Under the pieces are notes generated by a model that was not told where the DNA came from, did not search any database, and worked only from the letters and a program-made list of their open reading frames with translations. Of a stretch of DNA of 64,000 bases, positions 8,247 through 64,000 are shown one piece after another. Position 1 is the first letter of the stretch, and every line of letters starts with the position of its first letter. The translations under genes and the position numbers were made by a program. This DNA comes from Antedon mediterranea (Eukaryota; Echinodermata; Crinoidea; Comatulida; Antedonidae): positions 28,082,501 to 28,146,500 of the forward strand of contig NC_092672.1 of assembly GCF_964355755.1 (NCBI RefSeq), in the 5' to 3' direction.

Positions 8247-11200
8247 CAATCTTTCTTTAATACATCGAAATACAAAAAAAAAAAGCAGACAGAGAAAAAA
8301 TAGAAAAATTATACAAAATCAATTCTCCTATATAAACACCTTCTTATAAAATAAATATAGTTGTGCACATCAAGTCAGGATATAGAGTGATACAAATCTA
8401 TGTTACAGAAGATTATCCCAGGCACTCCACTCTTCCCATTCTTCGGCTCTATTATTAATCAAACATCTAAACTTTTTAATTGTAAAGTAATATTTTACAA
8501 AGCTTATGAGGCCGGTGGTTGAGAGGAGGCCCGAAAACTTACTCTTATATATATATACAACTTTAGTATTGACAAAAGTAAATTAATCCTATTGGATGGT
8601 GTATTACTAAAAAGCAGTTCACTTTCCGATACACATATACGAATATCAAGATTTCGAGAACACCATTGAAAAAAAAAAATTGCTTATCCATCTACTGATA
8701 TTACATTTACAGAATAAATGATAAACTGTTTCTCTTCTAATGTTACAAAAGGAGCAGTTATCTTCGTCGATGTACTTAATAATCTTAAGGTAAACTTTAG
8801 TTGTGAGGATACTGTTGTTAAGTCTGTATTGGAACCATCGTAATTTTACGTTGTCGGTCACATTAAAAGTTGCAACATTAATTTCTTCCCATTCATGTTC
8901 CGAGAATTCAACATTTAAGATTTTACCCCACTTTTGTTTAGCTTTACAGTTAAAGTCTTTGTTTTGAATAAACTTACGATAAAAAGCTTTACATCCTGTT
9001 TGGGGTTTGGTTATGGTTTCAAGTATGGGTAAATTTATTGGGTTTATTTCTGTACCCAAAGAAGGGTATTTAGTTATAATTGCATCAATTAATCCATAGT
9101 ATTAAGGAAATTATTTTTTTTCACCTTATAGTGTGTTTTGAAGTTTTCATAACTAAGCAAGGTTCCTCTATCCGAGATTAAATCATTTATGAACCTTACG
9201 CCACACTCATAATAATTGGTGTAAAAAATTGGAAAGTTATTGATTAGAATCGAATCATTCAACCATATTGGTTCTTTTAGTACGTTATAGTTTGCAGATG
9301 CTGTTGAATTATGAATAGCAATAAACTCGGACCATGAATGGAGAACATCTCTCCAGAACAAATTGTTCATATTATTTTTCGACAGCCTCTGAATCATGCA
9401 TGAGCCGTATTCAAAGATTGATTCAGTTTTTTTACCATGGCATATTTTGTTGAAAACTACATTGAGAATTCCAGTGTTGTTACGAATTCTTCGCATCCAA
9501 CTAATCTTAACTGCCTTTATGTAACTGAAGATACCAATCATGTTAATTCCGCCATCCTTATACTCTCTAATTAGCTTATTTCTTTTGATTTTATCTTTTC
9601 CCTTCCAGACAAAATTAAAAAACATCCTATTAAGTTCATTTAGATAAGCTGTAGTAGGGTTTGGCAACATTGTGAAAATATAATTAAGTTTTGATAATAT
9701 TAGAGATTTTAACACAGTTAATCTTCCCAACACAGTAAGATTTCTCTTACGCCACACATTGATAGTAGACCTAATTTTACCAGTTATCTCTTCAACATTT
9801 ATTTTAGTCATTTTGCTTATTTCTAAGTCAAATGTAACACCCAAAAAATCAAAACGGCCTTTATCAAACCAGTCAAGATTTGAATTAGTATTAATTTGTT
9901 CACTCGAGAACTTTTTTAATCCAAATCATATTGCTTTGGATTTAGAAATGTTAATTTTTAAACCAGACATCTTTTCAAATTTTGAAAGTGTACTCATGCA
10001 TTCAGTAAGTGATTTGTGTGAGCCGTTCAGAAGAAATGCAGTGTCATCTGCGTATTGTAACATTTTAATTTCAGAGGTATCAATTGTTACTCCTTTAATA
10101 TTAATATTTTGGCGTACCATCATGTTTAGAATTTCCACTCCCAGAATAAATAGGTATGGAGATAGCGGATCGCCCTGTCTGCAACCTCTTTCAATATTTA
10201 AAAAATTGCTGGGGTGTCCATTAACTAGAACGCATGAAGAGATATTCGTGTAAAAAAGTCTACACCATTTCTTAAGAGTTGGTCCAAAATTAAAGAAGGT
10301 CAAACACTTAATAAATTTGAACGCCAGGGAATCAAAGGCTTTCTCGAAATCTACCAGTAATACGAGACCAGGTAGGTTTTTTTCGTCATAGAGTGAGAGG
10401 ATATCATATAAAATACGAACATTTTCTCCAATATAAATCCCGCTTGGTTTTCATTAATGATATTTGGAAGGACAGATTTTAGCCTCTCTGCTATGGCCGA
10501 TGAAGCAATTTTGTAAGCAACATTTAATAAAGATATAGGACGCCAATTTTTTAATTCTTTTCTTGATTTATTCGCCTTTGGGATTAGAGTGATTGCTCCC
10601 TGTTTTTGAGTGACTGAAAGGTTACAAGTTTTAAAGCCATATTTCAAAGAACGAAGAAGTAGAGCACCCAGTTTCCCCCAAAAAATCTTGAAAAATTCAG
10701 ACGTAAAGCCGTCTGTTCCAGGTGATTTGTTGTTTTTCATTTTATTGAGTGCATTTGTAAGCTCAGCTAAGGTCAATTCACTCTCAAGCTTTTGAGATTC
10801 TTCTTCTGAAACTTTTTCGAAGTTCTGGTTTGTTATTAATACGTTTAAATCTATTTGCTCTATATCTTTTTTTTATATAAAGAACTGTAAAAATGCTCAA
10901 CTTCCTTTATTATAAGTTTATTGTCCAAATGGTAAGAGTTAAGCACTACTAAATAGTCAAAGTATGCACAGAAAAGCAACAATGGTTCTGCTGCTTCATT
11001 GCACATGCCCGATGTAACTTTTTCATCAGTTGTACTGTGATTTTGTATTTTAAACTTCCCATATCGGTGCAACGAAACGAAACAAGGCGACAGTTCGGAT
11101 GAACCATCGCGCCGTGATTGGTCAAACTACTTGCAGTGCGGTTGGTCACGCACTAAATGGCACATAGTCTGTAGTTATTTGTATTTTACCGTAGTCGGAT

Positions 11201-16104: not shown

Positions 16105-17080
16105 ACTACTCATACAGAACTCGTTCTGTCAACTAGGTATCCCTTGGTTAGTCATACAGAATTGGTTCTGTTAACTAGTGTATGTATCCCTTGGTTACTC
16201 ATATAGGATTAATTCTGTCAACTACTTTTGTAGGTATACCTAGGCAACTCATACAGTATCTATGGAAAAAAACTGGTTGTCAATTTGGTATCATTTGGCT
16301 ACTCACTCACACAGAACTGGTTCTGTCAACTTCTTATCACTTGGCTACTCATACAGAACTGGTTCTGTCAACTACATATCTCTTGGCTATACACATACAT
16401 TCTGTAGATTAGATTTTTACCGGTGGGAAATGCAAAAAACAAATTACAGTTAGCACCAAGCATGGAACTAGTTTAATCAACTAGTGATTCCTTGGCTACT
16501 CATACAGAACTGGTTCTGTAAACTACTTTAGTTATCTCTTAGCAAATCATACAGTACAGTATCTCAGCTAGTTCTAACTTGCTTAGGTCTTGTACTAGCA
16601 CATCCTGGACATGAATGTAATGCTTCTTGTATAAACATCTCACACTCAAGACAGAAAACTTTATCACATCTTGGACATAAGTACACTACTTGACCTGATA
16701 ACTTTCCCTGACATGCTTCACAATATCTAGAAATATGAAAAATGTTATAAAAATAACAGTAATGTAGACATCCAGTATTTGGAGTTGTCAGTCTAGTACT
16801 ACTCATACAGAATTGGTTCTGTCAACTGCTACAGGAACCCCTTGGCTGCTCTTACAAAATTGGTTCTGTCAACTACTTTTGTAGGTATCCCTTGGCTATA
16901 GTCATACAGAATTGGTTCTGTCAACTACTGTAGGAACCCCTTGACTAGTCATATCAAATTGGTTCTGTCAACTTCTGTAGGAACCCCTTGGCTAGTTATA
17001 CAGAATTAGTTGTCAACTACTGTAGGAATCCCTTAACTAGCCATACCGAATTGGTTCTGTCAACTACTTTTGCAGGTATA
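16105..17080. repeat. Degenerate minisatellite surrounding the last exon of GTF2H2
   Basis: About 14 imperfect units of ~50-60 bp with core CTCATACAGAACTGGTTCTG then TCAACTAC and TATCCCTTGGCTA. Each core holds a perfect 6-bp inverted repeat, CAGAAC-TG-GTTCTG (or -TTG-). Units occur on both sides of the exon at 16564-16726, so the array runs from the 3' UTR/flank into the last intron and the coding exon sits in its middle. Confidence 0.85.
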
Positions 17081-20000
17081 TGTTGGAAAAAAAAACACTT
17101 ACGAACTGTAAGACTCATCTAGACTTGTAGTTGATATTTCTGTAAACTCATCCAAAGGAAATAAATGGTGAAATGATCTTGCTAAGTGAGGTGCCGACAC
17201 TAAAGTCAAACCTGAAATAAAACCAAATTTAAACATCTCTGATTCTGCTGCAAGGACATACTGTAACTGAATAATAGTTGAGTGAGTTATCTAATTTTCA
17301 TTTCAAATCGAAGGTTCTGCTGTCAAGAAATACCTGTTTCACCAGTAGGGTGATAGGGTTTCTCACCAGAAAATTGTCGGGGAGAATTTACCATTTGTTA
17401 GGTAAAAACAAAAATATTAATAATATTATTGTAAAAACTACAAAATACATTTCATAAGCATATCGTCTGTTAGTGTCACTTTGTGACATTACTGACAGCA
17501 TGCACTGTAAGCTGATGGTAGAGTTTAGATGACATTTCCCACTGTTACGAAGATCATGGTATCTTTAGAAATGACTAAAACATAAATGTATGTCTAATTT
17601 TGTATTTGCTTAAAGATATATTGTCCCCAAAAACATTACAAAATAAAGATTAATAAAAAAAGACTTTGAATATAGGCCAATTCACAATTTGAATAAAGTC
17701 AATTACTTCCGTAGAAATAAAATATGTTTTCAATTCAACTAAAAACCCATTGACTTCCAGTCAATTTTACTATTTTTTTGTTTAAATTACATTTTTTTCA
17801 GGTAAATAATTTAGTTTTCGGTCTAAAATTTGGTCAAAGTGAATAACTATTATGTGACATTAAAATGGCATATTCAACATTCAAGACATTAAAAAAAAAA
17901 ATTTTTTTAGAGGGACAATAATATATACTATTCTAATATGTACTCACCACAGCACTTGCATTCAATTGGAAGTTCGCAATATTTGCTATGACATTGTGGA
18001 CAGAAATATCCCCCTAAACCAAACCCTTCTGAAGTTTTTGAATCAAGATGACTAAAAAATAAAAAGACATAAAATCACTAATTAAATAACAACACTTTAT
18101 TTTAAGTGAAAAATAATATAACAGCAAGGAACACTCAATGATCCCACAAACTTTTAGTGGCGGATCCAGGAATTAGAAATAGGATGGTATTTGGATCTGC
18201 GCTTGACGTTAGAGTTAAAGTCAATAAAGTTATCAAAATGTCAACAATAAACAACTTACCAAACACAAATAGCAGGTTTATCTGTGTGAATTTGATGTTT
18301 CGGAAATCCTAAAACAATTATAAAATACAGTACATAAATGAACTATATTGTTTTTAAAAAGAGTAAATCACAATTAAAACTACTATTAGCATATAAAAGA
18401 AAGAATAGACTTGAGATTTTATATAACAAGACCTTGGGTCAACAAATACAAAACACATAAAATATTAAATAGCTACTCACCCATCTTGATTAATGATGAT
18501 TCCGAATTAACCTAAGAGTAAAATGATTTTTGATAATATAATAACTAAATTAATATGAAATGGACTGTTTTTTTGTTGTTTAACCTACTCCTAAATAAAA
18601 TATTGCATGGGAAAAATAAATAAATAAACAAAAGCATTACCGTGGCTGGTGGAGGTAAAGTATGTTCCATTAATAGTTCTTTGTAATGAGTTTCATCAAG
18701 TATAACTCCATAGGTTCCTGAAAATAAATCAATAGTTACAATGTCATCAGGGTTAACTCCTCAGATTACTGATATTTACTGTACTTTTGTCACTAATAAT
18801 AATCATTATTAATCTGGATTAACCTAATAATTTTCAGTATCCCCTGAATCTGTATAGTACTATAATTGAAAACAATAAAAAAAAAACAAAAAAAAGTAAA
18901 AGAAAAAAAACCTAAACAAGTTTTTAAAACAATTTATTTTAAAGTAAACAAAAAACAAATTTGAAAAAAAGTAAGAAAAAACAACCTAAAACAAATAAAA
19001 TTAAATTGTAACAAAATCTTACCATTTGTTACATTACAGAGTTTTTTACATATTCTCACTTCAGCTGCGAGACCAATAACTGAACATCTTATATTATTTG
19101 ACTTCATTGTCTGAAAAGGAATTAAATCATAACACACATTACATTAAGGGTCTGTTCAGACATACAACTACATACAAGTTATGGTTTTGTATTGTATTGT
19201 GTACAGTGTGTTTCAGTATGTAAAACTTACATCGATTGTCTGATGTATGTTATCAGGGTCACATGTGGTTAAACTGCCCATAATGATGAGGACCTCTCTG
19301 CTGGCATGGCCTGGCATGTGTCTGTTGAAAACAAAGTTTATCAAAGGCATATTAAAAAGATATACTCCTACAGTACAGTAGGTCACATGTGGTTAAACTG
19401 CCCATAATGATGAGGACCTCTCTGCTGGCATGGCCTGGCATGTGTCTGTTGAAAACAAAGTTTATCAAAGGCATATTAAAAAGATATACTCCTACAGTAC
19501 AGTAGGTCACATGTGGTTAACTGCCCATAATGATGAGGACCTCTCTGCTGGCATGGCCTGGCATGTGTCTGTTGAAAACAAAGTTTATCAAAGGCATATT
19601 AAAAAGATATACTCCTACAGTACAGTAGGTCACATGTGGTTAAACTGCCCATAATGATGAGGACCTCTCTGCTGGCATGGCCTGGCATGTGTCTGTTGAA
19701 AACAAAGTTTATCAAAGGCATATTAAAAAGATATACTCCTACAGTACAGTATGTCACAGGTGGTTAAACTGCCCATAATGATGAGGACCTCTCTGCTGGC
19801 ATGGCCTGGCATGTGTCTGTTGAAAACAAAGTTTATCAAAGGCATATTAAAAAGATATACTCCTACAGTACAGTAGGTCACAGGTGGTTAAACTGCCCAT
19901 AATGATGAGGACCTCTCTGCTGGCATGGCCTGGCATGTGTCTGTTGAAAACAAAGTTTATCAAAGGCATATTAAAAAGGTTTACTCCTACAGTACAGTAG

Positions 20001-23000
20001 GTTTACCAGAAAAGAACTAAAGCTTCAAACTTAACTACAAGATTTTCGTTTGAGGTGAAGGTGAAAGTATCATTCTGCAACCGCAACTGCGTTAAATTAT
20101 TGTGGCTAAGCATTAAGGTATGCAAACCATAGCCATAAAACCAGCCCAGGTCCAAGGCTCTCTTTGGCCACAGTTTTTCTCAGATATGGATTTAAAACTT
20201 GATTGGTCTTGAGTAAATACATTCTGGTTTTGCCTTTAAGGACACAATCTTCTGTAAGAGTAGGGGTTACCTCAGTGTACTGATTTATCTTGGCCCCTGC
20301 CAGTCAGAGAGTGCCGTTTGGAGGCAGCTCAACGCAAAGAGATTGATTGAAATATATATTTATACTGGGTAACCTCTTCAGTCAATGACTGGTCTCCCAG
20401 AGGGCCCAGTTGGTGATCAGTGGCTGTGATGTACTAATACACGGGGTAACCCCCTACTCGTCTCGAAAGATGTACTAGGTTCTTTAAAGTGCACACGAGC
20501 TAGATGTGTACACTGGACCTACGGTTTATAGTCCTTATCCGAGAAGACTCGTTCTACCACCAGAACCATGGAGTGAGTTAGCCTCGAACCCCTGCCGTTG
20601 TTATGGCTAGGTAATTACGGTTCCACTGTCTTAACCGCTCGGCCACTCACTCACCAAGAGAGATCTTGGAGTTGCATGTGATAGTAGTCAAATTCCAGTT
20701 TTAAAATTTATAAATACAAATCCCCTTGGTAAAGCACTATATACTGTACACTATTTAGGTAAGTCTGACAATGCTTCTCTTATATTTCTTACCTGAGAGA
20801 GGTTAATGCCAATTCTAAAGAGTTCTGTAAAGAGGGTTCCTTAAGGCACACCTTGTCTTTGCACTTCTTAAGTGTGTTTATATGTCTTCTAGGATTGCCG
20901 CCAAGATCTGTCAGTTTCTCAGCTCTCATGTTACTAGTTGTTATAATTCCAAGCTATTTTAAAAAAGAAATTTAATTATGAATTTTAAAATACAGACCTC
21001 CTTTTGTCATCTCTCACTGTCTCACTAAAATATAATTTTTCCCGATATTTTGGATAAACATAAAAAAATATCTTGATAATGTCAATAGTCTCCCGATATT
21101 GTGTGTCAATACCCGCTAAAATACAATATTCTCAACATTTTTCATCTTTGGTGGTACGCCATACTCATGTTTACTATTATATATGCCAATATCTTTCTAT
21201 TTTTTAATAGCGCCCTAATTAGTTTGAGATAATTTTCAAAATATTATAGCACCCTCTATAGTTTTGACATGCTTTAAAAAATATACCTGATATTTAATTT
21301 TTAAAAGTTGGCAGGTCTCAAAATAGAAAATTTGCTTATCAGACTTAAATTACTTGATTACTACAGTACTTAACAGTTAAATTACTGTGGCTGTCGTTGG
21401 ATCTGTAGAAGCATAGTCAAAATTTCCTCAATTTAGGAATAAACAAACAATAGTCATTTTAGGCAACTGGTTAAGTACATACCTGACTGATTGGATTCTG
21501 GTCATAGTATTCTTCAATGAAACTCTCTATAAGCTGAAAGTAAATTAATAATTACTAATTATTTTCAGACCTCTCGAACCGTATTAAGATAGAATAAATA
21601 ATTATAAATGTGTATATGTATACAGTATGTTTAATAATTATATTAAATATGTTTGTAATAAGACATTGGAAATACTGTTCACTGTTCACTAGAACCACTA
21701 TTAAGTGGACACCTTCAGGACCAAACATTTTCCCATTTATTTTCCAACCTCAAACTCACTGATATAAACTAATAATAATAATAATAATAATAATAACAAC
21801 TTTATTTAAAAATGGATGCAACACTTGAATCACCATATTGGTGCTTTTCACAAGGCCGTTACTTACTACAAAACTATTTATACCATTACACAAGTTATCA
21901 TTTACAGTACAAAAAAAAAACCAAAAAGATTTCATGAAAAAATATAGAGTTTCAAGTATATTTTATCTTTGGTCATTTATCATTTTTTTAAATATATGTA
22001 TATTAGGAGCTGTAATTGCATTTGAGTTTATAGCATTTAAACTATTCCATAGCTTTGCGCCAGAATACGAGAAACTTTTCTTTTTATACTCAGTGTTTGC
22101 CTTATGTAAACTTAGAATATCTTTTGATCTAGTATTATATGTTTGTTTGCGTTCATAGAATCTGTTTCTTAAGTAGGATGGTGTCAAGTTATTCATTAAA
22201 TTTATACATTGTGACTGCTTCGTTGTAATATTGTTTTTCTTCTAAATTAGGCCAATTTAAATCTTTGAGCGCCTGTGAGCTAGAGTCATACCTAGATGTA
22301 TGTGTAATTATTTTAGCCGCTCTATTTTGGAGTACTTGGAGTTTATATTTGAGGGTTTGGTTACAACGACCCCATACTACATTGCAGTAGTCAAATTGGT
22401 GGGCTATGATAGATTTGTACATTAATGATTGAATATTTTGCAACAAGGCAAATTTGTATTCTCAGCCCTGCATTCCACTTCTCCAAATCATTTAAGCAAT
22501 ATGTTAATTTCCAATTTTTCTATTCACAATTACCCAACACGTTCTAGAACAGATATACACATACCTATCCACAACACCAATGATGAACAGTTTACCACCC
22601 CCAATTACAAATGCTGTTTCAATTTCTTTATTTTCCAAAAAAATTAAAACAACACCTAATGTTAAACTATTAAAAAGACAACGATCGAATGTCGCAATTT
22701 GATTTTTTTATGCTGCTGAACATTGATCTACTGTGATTTTTGAGTTTTATTTTCTGATATTACAATTTGATTGATCTATTTTTTTTTTCCCTGTTTGTGC
22801 ATTTTTTTGTCATGCTTGTTTCTCTTAATTTCCACTCTTATACAAATATCCATTATATTTACATAGGCATACCCAGTACAAGATTTCCACATCGTCTCGG
22901 GATTATGCCTTCCTCCATGGCCAATTTTCTAAAATTCTCTTTTCTTTTATATATCCAACAATCATCTTTATCATTTTTACTAAAACATTATCATTTCTGT

Positions 23001-25322: not shown

Positions 25323-42528
<17,206 letters not shown>

Positions 42529-62905: not shown

Positions 62906-64000
62906 TGGCCCAATTGCCCAGTTTTTCAGAAAATCTTGGTTCTCCGATGGAATTTCAATAGATTATTACTAATGAATTTTACACCTTTTGGCCGAGTAAG
63001 TGACTCTCTTCTTTGCAGGGCTAGTAAGTGATTCTCTTCTTTGCAGGGTGGTTTCATTTGACCATACATTATCTTGTTCAAGGACTATGTCCATCAATTA
63101 TTATCATCAGGGTAATAATCCTTGTATTAATTAATCACGTATTTCGGAAATGCAGGCACGTGGCTGGCCAGCCTTAAGCGATTCAGACCTCCCTACTTGA
63201 CTAATCATATCCCCCTCTGGATCACATTAATTCAAAATGCCTTGAAATTAATGATTCCAGCAGAGGATTTTGGTTTATGTTTCCTGGGGGAAATGTTAAC
63301 TGGATTTTTTAATTGAAAGCATTCCATAACAGAGAATTTATTTAAAATTTGGGAGTATTCAATTAAGTATTTTGTCCATGGTAATAGACAGTTTTATGAA
63401 GGAGGTAGGCCTAAATGTAGGCCTACATTATGCAGAAATTGCCTGATGTTGTTGACAAATAAGCATTTATTTGAAAATTTAATATATGACTGCATTTTTG
63501 CTAAGTTTGTGCTACCAAAAATCAGTGGTTGGTCAGGCTGCTTGTATGGGCGCGTTTATACAACACGCTATTACACGCATATTCTACACGCCTACGAGAA
63601 GTGTGTTGTATAACAACAAAGAGATTCCGTGTAATGAGATTTTAATTGCAAAAAAAGGCTACTTGGCTGAATCCTAAAATTTGGTGGATTCCCGGTCGCC
63701 GTTACCGTGTTGGAAGTGTCCTCAGGGTATATTTTGACCTCTCGTTAAAACAGGTCGTAATATCAATCATGTCATGCGACGTCTAACAAGATTGGGCCCA
63801 TTTATTGCTGCTTCGCTGCCAGCAATCATCCTCCTACCACGTCTTACGCCTAGCCTGGTAGGGCCAACTCGTAGTGGTAGTAGGCCTCTATAGACTATCG
63901 TTTCCCACTCCAAACAGAATAAAAAATAACATCGCAAAAATGGCATCTTCTTCCATAGTGTTAGATGAAACAATGAAACCCTTAAAATAACTTTTATTAA
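62906..64000. other. No gene recognised; possible conserved non-coding block near 63140-63270
   Basis: A 17-base direct repeat (GTAAGTGATTCTCTTCTTTG type) lies at ~62996-63045. 63140-63270 is non-repetitive and moderately GC (GCAGGCACGTGGCTGGCCAG, then CCTTGAAATTAATGATTCC) and looks like a regulatory element by eye only. TAGGCCTA palindromes occur at ~63405-63425. Confidence 0.3.

Follow-up and report, generated by a model that had tools for sequence, protein, structure and literature searches.

An array of duplicated intron-exon boundaries in the GTF2H2 gene of the crinoid Antedon mediterranea, apparently a mirage minisatellite outside amphioxus

The GTF2H2 gene and the array at exon 6

The window analyzed here, a 64-kb stretch of the Antedon mediterranea genome, contains a complete gene of 13 coding exons on the minus strand, from 24130 to 16564, that can be identified as GTF2H2 (TFIIH p44). 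The exons lie at 24130-24075, 23692-23578, 23307-23221, 21533-21483 and 20953-20793 (exons 1-5), 19321-19231, 19110-19023, 18717-18641 and 18511-18481 (exons 6-9), and 18308-18260, 18051-17948, 17211-17103 and 16726-16564 (exons 10-13). The spliced frame is open over 393 amino acids, all 12 introns begin with GT and end with AG, and residues 1-386 align with the human-type p44 chain 5o85_B with an E value of 1.3e-161, the yeast Ssl1 chains ranking next; the identity of the gene and of exon 6, as given in a preliminary description of this DNA, is thereby borne out. A second p44 gene was sought through the Ssl1 family in the assembly, as far as it was open to the search, and all four matches listed (11 of 11 candidates scored) are exons of GTF2H2. 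Intron 5, as predicted by this model, is 1471 nt long (19322-20792), most of the other introns spanning 120 to 1687 nt. Intron 5 also holds, ahead of the array described below, a tRNA-like head (GTGGCCGAGCGGTTAAGAC) with a SINE-like body (20660-20250, minus strand).

The boundary between intron 5 and exon 6 is straddled by a head-to-tail tandem array of six copies of a 124-bp unit (19257-19999, minus strand; Tandem Repeats Finder, TRF, reports 19257-20002, period 124, 6.0 copies, 98% match, score 1450). Each unit joins 59 nt from the tail of intron 5, AG included, to the 65 nt with which the 91-nt exon 6 begins, an anatomy that agrees with what had been claimed, except that copy 4 measures 123 bp. 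In the order of transcription, the units lie at 19876-19999, 19752-19875, 19628-19751, 19505-19627, 19381-19504 and 19257-19380, and the first five present decoy acceptors, with first exonic bases at 19940, 19816, 19692, 19568 and 19445, respectively, followed by the real acceptor at 19321 in unit 6; the preliminary coordinates were correct for the real site and three of the decoys but off by one for the other two, those in units 3 and 4. Unit 4 owes its length to a 1-nt deletion in the exon part, and unit 1 carries two private substitutions in the intron part.

Exon 6 itself (19231-19321, 91 nt) is the sole copy that continues through the final 26 nt to the authentic donor, GAT/GTAAGT (here and below, the slash marks the splice point). 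Tandem exon duplication, that is, repetition of a whole exon with both splice sites, does not describe this structure given that units 1-5 lack those 26 nt and the donor. The earlier statement that only the last copy has a donor holds for the authentic one but not for donor-like sequences, every unit also having an ACT/GTAGGA. The five decoy units would all belong to intron 5. An 85-amino-acid frame on the plus strand of the array (19397-19654) is a by-product of the repeat. Assembly-wide, the array was found at this one place, and among the six TRF arrays listed within or beside GTF2H2, it is the only one that contains an exon edge. A minisatellite with a unit of about 42-47 bp and, by eye, a CAGAACCAATTCTGTATGA core occupies parts of 16107-17068, in intron 12 and again past the stop codon; when TRF arrays were compared with the GTF2H2 exons, no exon edge fell inside it.

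Divergence of the units and the genomic setting

The near-identity of the copies noted previously is confirmed. Only five columns vary among the units, two in the intronic part and three, including the deletion, in the exonic part; units 3, 5 and 6 are identical, units 1, 2 and 4 each differ, and the mean pairwise difference is 1.53 substitutions per 124 nt, or 1.2%. The most diverged unit is unit 1, at the intronic edge, and the inner units 3 and 5 are identical, as is unit 6 at the other edge, a pattern that rests on those five variable columns. The edges of the array share a 3-nt microhomology, ACC. Two features of the sequence in and around the units were considered and rejected. A search for inverted repeats that might drive the expansion returned no pairs of 12 nt or more between 18900 and 20400; CCTACTGTACTGTAGG, a near-palindrome found where units meet, is too short for that search. 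The 18-mer CCTACTGTACTGTAGGAG, examined in case a mobile or repeated motif marks the edge of the unit, has six exact matches in the assembly, five in the array and one at C3:980500, where the flanks, by eye, do not resemble the array unit.

The assembly comprises 354.4 Mb in 18 contigs, of which the 11 large ones hold 353.5 Mb. In a sample of 15 stretches of 10 kb from 11 contigs (GC content 29-39%, mostly 31-34%), with arrays defined by a period of at least 10 and at least 2.5 copies, we found 25 arrays that cover 6,079 of the 150,000 bases, six of them with a period of 60 or more; the 64-kb window has 18 arrays that cover 5,497 bases, and among those with a period of 60 or more, the GTF2H2 array has the highest match (98%). 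The genome is, then, rich in minisatellites, and in such a genome some arrays are expected to touch an exon edge by chance. Other boundary arrays were sought through a kinase family search, in which no close repeat of one part of the profile was seen by eye (140 matches, 127 of 890 candidates scored); this approach is insensitive, the Ssl1 search likewise having passed over the decoys of the present array. At eight tektin loci, TRF detected no array with a long unit. Of these eight loci, retrieved from 21 tektin matches listed, three were compared with known structures, and each of the three exons agrees best, by a wide margin, with entry 8snb from sea urchin sperm microtubules (174.7 against 136.2 bits, 211.3 against 134.9, and 198.5 against 136.7), as befits an echinoderm; the genome, at about 33% GC and with 11 large contigs, also differs from amphioxus, which has about 41% GC and 19-20 chromosomes. 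A COX1 search of the assembly gave no match, so that a mitochondrial contig appears to be missing, and a mir-2 search gave none among the 60 of 131,623 candidates scored.

Elsewhere in the window, several arrays contain splice-like motifs. At 40764-41242 on the plus strand, a 25-bp unit that contains a pyrimidine stretch and a CTAG, resembling an acceptor, is repeated about 19 times in tandem. This array begins roughly 50 nt downstream of a likely donor, AAATTT/GTGAGT, near 40712, apparently without overlapping the exon; judging from the translated frames, the gene with this donor is presumably OPA1. A long array with a 31-bp unit (38113-38720, plus strand), whose consensus includes the acceptor-like TTCTATTTTTAG, precedes a frame (38861-39124) that likewise resembles OPA1. 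A 28-bp unit present in 1.9 copies at 62995-63048 (plus strand) has both GTAAGT and TTGCAG/G. In addition, two frames on the minus strand (9926-10872) resemble, by eye, parts of a LINE-type reverse transcriptase.

The decoy acceptors and the consequences of their use

A transcript of this gene would meet five complete decoy 3' splice sites before the real one, just as originally proposed: the last 38 intronic bases, with their own pyrimidine stretch and AG, are identical in all six copies, a candidate branch region can be discerned by eye in each, and the 65 exonic bases that follow are common to the six copies apart from the three variable columns. When scored with a small and rough matrix derived from the remaining 11 GTF2H2 acceptors, all six sites reach 0.92, ninth among the 12 real sites. 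Since the acceptors are alike, the main differences between them are in position and in the exon end and donor that lie downstream. Splicing to a decoy, with the exon then extending as far as the exon 6 donor, would yield exons of 710, 586, 462, 338 and 215 nt for units 1 to 5, respectively, each with a premature in-frame stop. For four of the five decoys, this stop begins 91 nt past the acceptor, nine codons beyond the last whole duplicated codon, close to the ten or so anticipated; the decoy of copy 4 departs from that expectation, its stop beginning at 49 nt, within the exon part, because of the 1-nt deletion.

Judged by the same small matrix, 13 other AG sites, distributed over seven of the 11 other introns, equal or surpass the acceptor of exon 6. 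Acceptor-like AGs are therefore not rare in GTF2H2, although none of these 13 is a full copy with an exon behind it. The ACT/GTAGGA present in each unit scores 3.0 on a matrix of the 12 donors (the real donors, scored leave-one-out, range from -2.7 to 11.3), a value that 59 of the gene's 448 GTs reach; a pseudoexon of 73-74 nt, delimited by a decoy and an ACT/GTAGGA, is conceivable on the basis of the sequence. Each of the six units also contains exactly one AG/GT, at exonic position 28/29. As an acceptor, it scores -28.4 on the 12-site matrix, the median of the 458 AGs being -10.9, and as a donor it is middling, with a score of -1.0 that 213 of the 448 GTs equal or exceed.

Two further possibilities were weighed and dismissed. 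Predicted RNA folding, computed for two complete units and for an intron tail, was not superior to that of shuffled sequences (z of 0.88, 1.41 and -0.30), and a recursive-splicing ratchet can be set aside given that exon 6 begins with AC, so that joining to a decoy rebuilds no GT.

Relation to mirage minisatellites and other duplicated boundaries

The closest counterparts of the GTF2H2 array are the mirage minisatellites of amphioxus (BflGb6, BflGb9, Adh3, troponin C and PGBD5), which are likewise tandem minisatellites that lie across an intron-exon boundary and supply extra splice signals. In the globin gene BflGb6, the 150-160-bp unit combines the tail of an intron with the beginning of exon 2 and is present in six and three units on two haplotypes (PMC3087553); the GTF2H2 array has the same composition and matches one of these haplotypes in the number of units. 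In lancelet PGBD5, repeats of 60 and 108 bp occur at splice sites, with copy numbers that differ between two assemblies (PMC3902484). The unit lengths are comparable, 10-72, 60, 108 and 150-160 bp in amphioxus against 124 bp here (PMC3087553, PMC3902484), whereas the units are about 99% alike in GTF2H2 compared with 81-100% in BflGb6 (PMC3087553). With regard to function, the Adh3 data and globin RT-PCR are said to suggest undisturbed splicing, and the authors of that account propose that mirages may seed new introns (PMC3087553); the Adh and troponin C mirages are stated not to generate aberrant mRNAs (PMC3902484).

Unlike these amphioxus cases, the present array resides in the gene for TFIIH p44 and is known from the genomic DNA of one assembly. 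It spans the boundary, its unit combines an exonic and an intronic part with a splice signal, and a unit of minisatellite size is repeated six times. The array is thus best read as a member of the mirage kind, whose existence in amphioxus the preliminary description did not take into account, and apparently represents it outside that group; what sets it apart is the combination of a core TFIIH gene, near-identical units and an echinoderm genome. In our search of the literature, restricted to open-licence papers, we found no mirage outside the cephalochordates, and the duplicated acceptors found elsewhere are cases of single duplication. In one of these, the potato RdRp gene gained an intron when a stretch spanning an intron-exon boundary was duplicated in tandem, and the new intron is used via a cryptic GTAAG donor (PMC4974935); in contrast, GTF2H2 has six copies and no sign that the repeats form a new intron. 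The other, a partial tandem duplication of intron 9 and exon 10 of BRCA1, also joins an intron end and an exon start in tandem, with a stop soon past the junction, but it has one extra copy, of 2,012 nt, in a very large exon, and its cDNA kept the duplicated intron part, so that splicing had gone to the upstream acceptor and continued through the duplicated part, and the mRNA was altered (PMC11839443). The duplication in PMC7605655 is of a different kind, being large and spanning several exons.

The human UBC gene, in which dual-specific AG/GT splice sites are reported within tandem repeats (PMC10809524), resembles GTF2H2 in that there is one AG/GT per array unit but differs in that the GTF2H2 unit is not a coding repeat and its AG/GT makes a very poor acceptor. 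Despite its presence in all six units, then, the AG/GT, judged by its acceptor score, does not make this a dual-specific repeat of the UBC type.

A further parallel comes from the globin minigenes of the 1980s, in which duplicated splice sites were reportedly made to compete. The element in common would be cis competition between identical 3' splice sites followed by exon stretches of unequal length. Unlike those constructs, the GTF2H2 array is a natural one of six, in an endogenous gene.

Discussion

It appears probable that the array is a minisatellite of the mirage kind, spanning an intron-exon boundary, that is mostly tolerated rather than serving as a device. Slippage or unequal exchange would have produced and homogenized the copies, and the message would survive because the last copy retained the remainder of the exon and its donor. 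Intron 5 and most of the other introns of the gene have lengths at which splicing by exon definition is to be expected. Through this mode, exon 5 would mostly be joined to the last acceptor, since that one alone has a good donor 91 nt downstream, whereas the decoys require exons of 215-710 nt; such a choice by exon definition is plausible. The decoys would then be ignored, or the transcripts that use them, with their premature stops, would probably be destroyed, and normal splicing of exon 5 to the last acceptor would preserve the conserved full-length p44. Both a recent expansion of the array and, by analogy, copy-number polymorphism are plausible, and the precedent of similar amphioxus arrays lends support to instability combined with normal splicing in GTF2H2 as well.

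The distribution of variants, with unit 1 the most divergent and units 3 and 5 identical, is as in tandem repeat turnover and speaks for a tolerated minisatellite, although the identity of the edge unit 6 with the inner units runs against that pattern. Tolerance, too, has points against it: compared with the other GTF2H2 acceptors, that of exon 6 is weak, ranking ninth of 12 by a rough matrix, and the 215-nt exon that decoy 5 would create is of normal size. Furthermore, in a designed library of human reporters, tandem 3' splice sites of equal strength located 2-59 nt apart showed no preference for order (PMC6783452), so that position alone would not protect the last site.

An alternative is that the decoys are used often enough to matter, such that a share of the transcripts hits a stop and is degraded, and the number of units sets the output of p44 and may vary between animals. 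The decoy sequences equal the real acceptor, each of the five brings in a stop when the exon extends as far as the donor of exon 6, and the BRCA1 duplication is a precedent for the use of an upstream copy (PMC11839443). However, the amphioxus mirages are said not to disturb splicing (PMC3087553, PMC3902484), acceptor-like AGs as good as the exon 6 site are common in the introns of this gene anyway, and selection would presumably act against a severe loss affecting a core subunit of TFIIH. On balance, an appreciable effect of the decoys seems unlikely, and the earlier suggestion that copy number could tune expression finds no support in this analysis.

We consider it quite improbable that the array is the seed of a new exon, formed by a decoy and the ACT/GTAGGA of the next unit (74, 74, 74, 73 and 74 nt), or of a new intron inside the array. 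The score of the donor-like site and the instances of intron birth, proposed for the amphioxus globins (PMC3087553) and shown for potato RdRp (PMC4974935), speak for this scenario, but the ACT/GTAGGA is weak and common, a 74-nt insert shifts the frame, and only about 50 nt separate the donor-like site from the next acceptor.

It would be similarly surprising if the array turned out to be an artefact of assembly or an allele private to the animal that was sequenced. Assemblies are known to be prone to error where short tandem copies are nearly identical; against this, the copies carry distinguishing variants (the five columns, with units 1, 2 and 4 each differing), nearly all of the assembly is in large contigs, and an array of 0.75 kb is short relative to long reads.

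Least probable is a self-correcting array, in which exon 5 would be spliced to a decoy and whole units then removed from the AG/GT of the decoy to that of the last copy. Computed for all five decoys, this second splice would restore the normal mRNA exactly; ordinary junction reads would not reveal that a decoy had been used, growth and shrinkage of the array would be nearly free, and the number of units would set how much message is lost en route. We assign this scheme its low probability because the AG/GT is a very poor acceptor and a middling donor.

The GTF2H2 array amounts to a natural experiment with a duplicated splice site: a single transcript offers six competing sites, alike over their final 38 intronic bases, and the chief variables are how far each is from the donor of exon 5 and what sequence follows it. 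The unit number is countable and would allow exon definition, proximity and the tolerance of decoys to be measured in an essential gene. More generally, the presence of such an array in a crinoid suggests that the mirage kind is not confined to lancelets.
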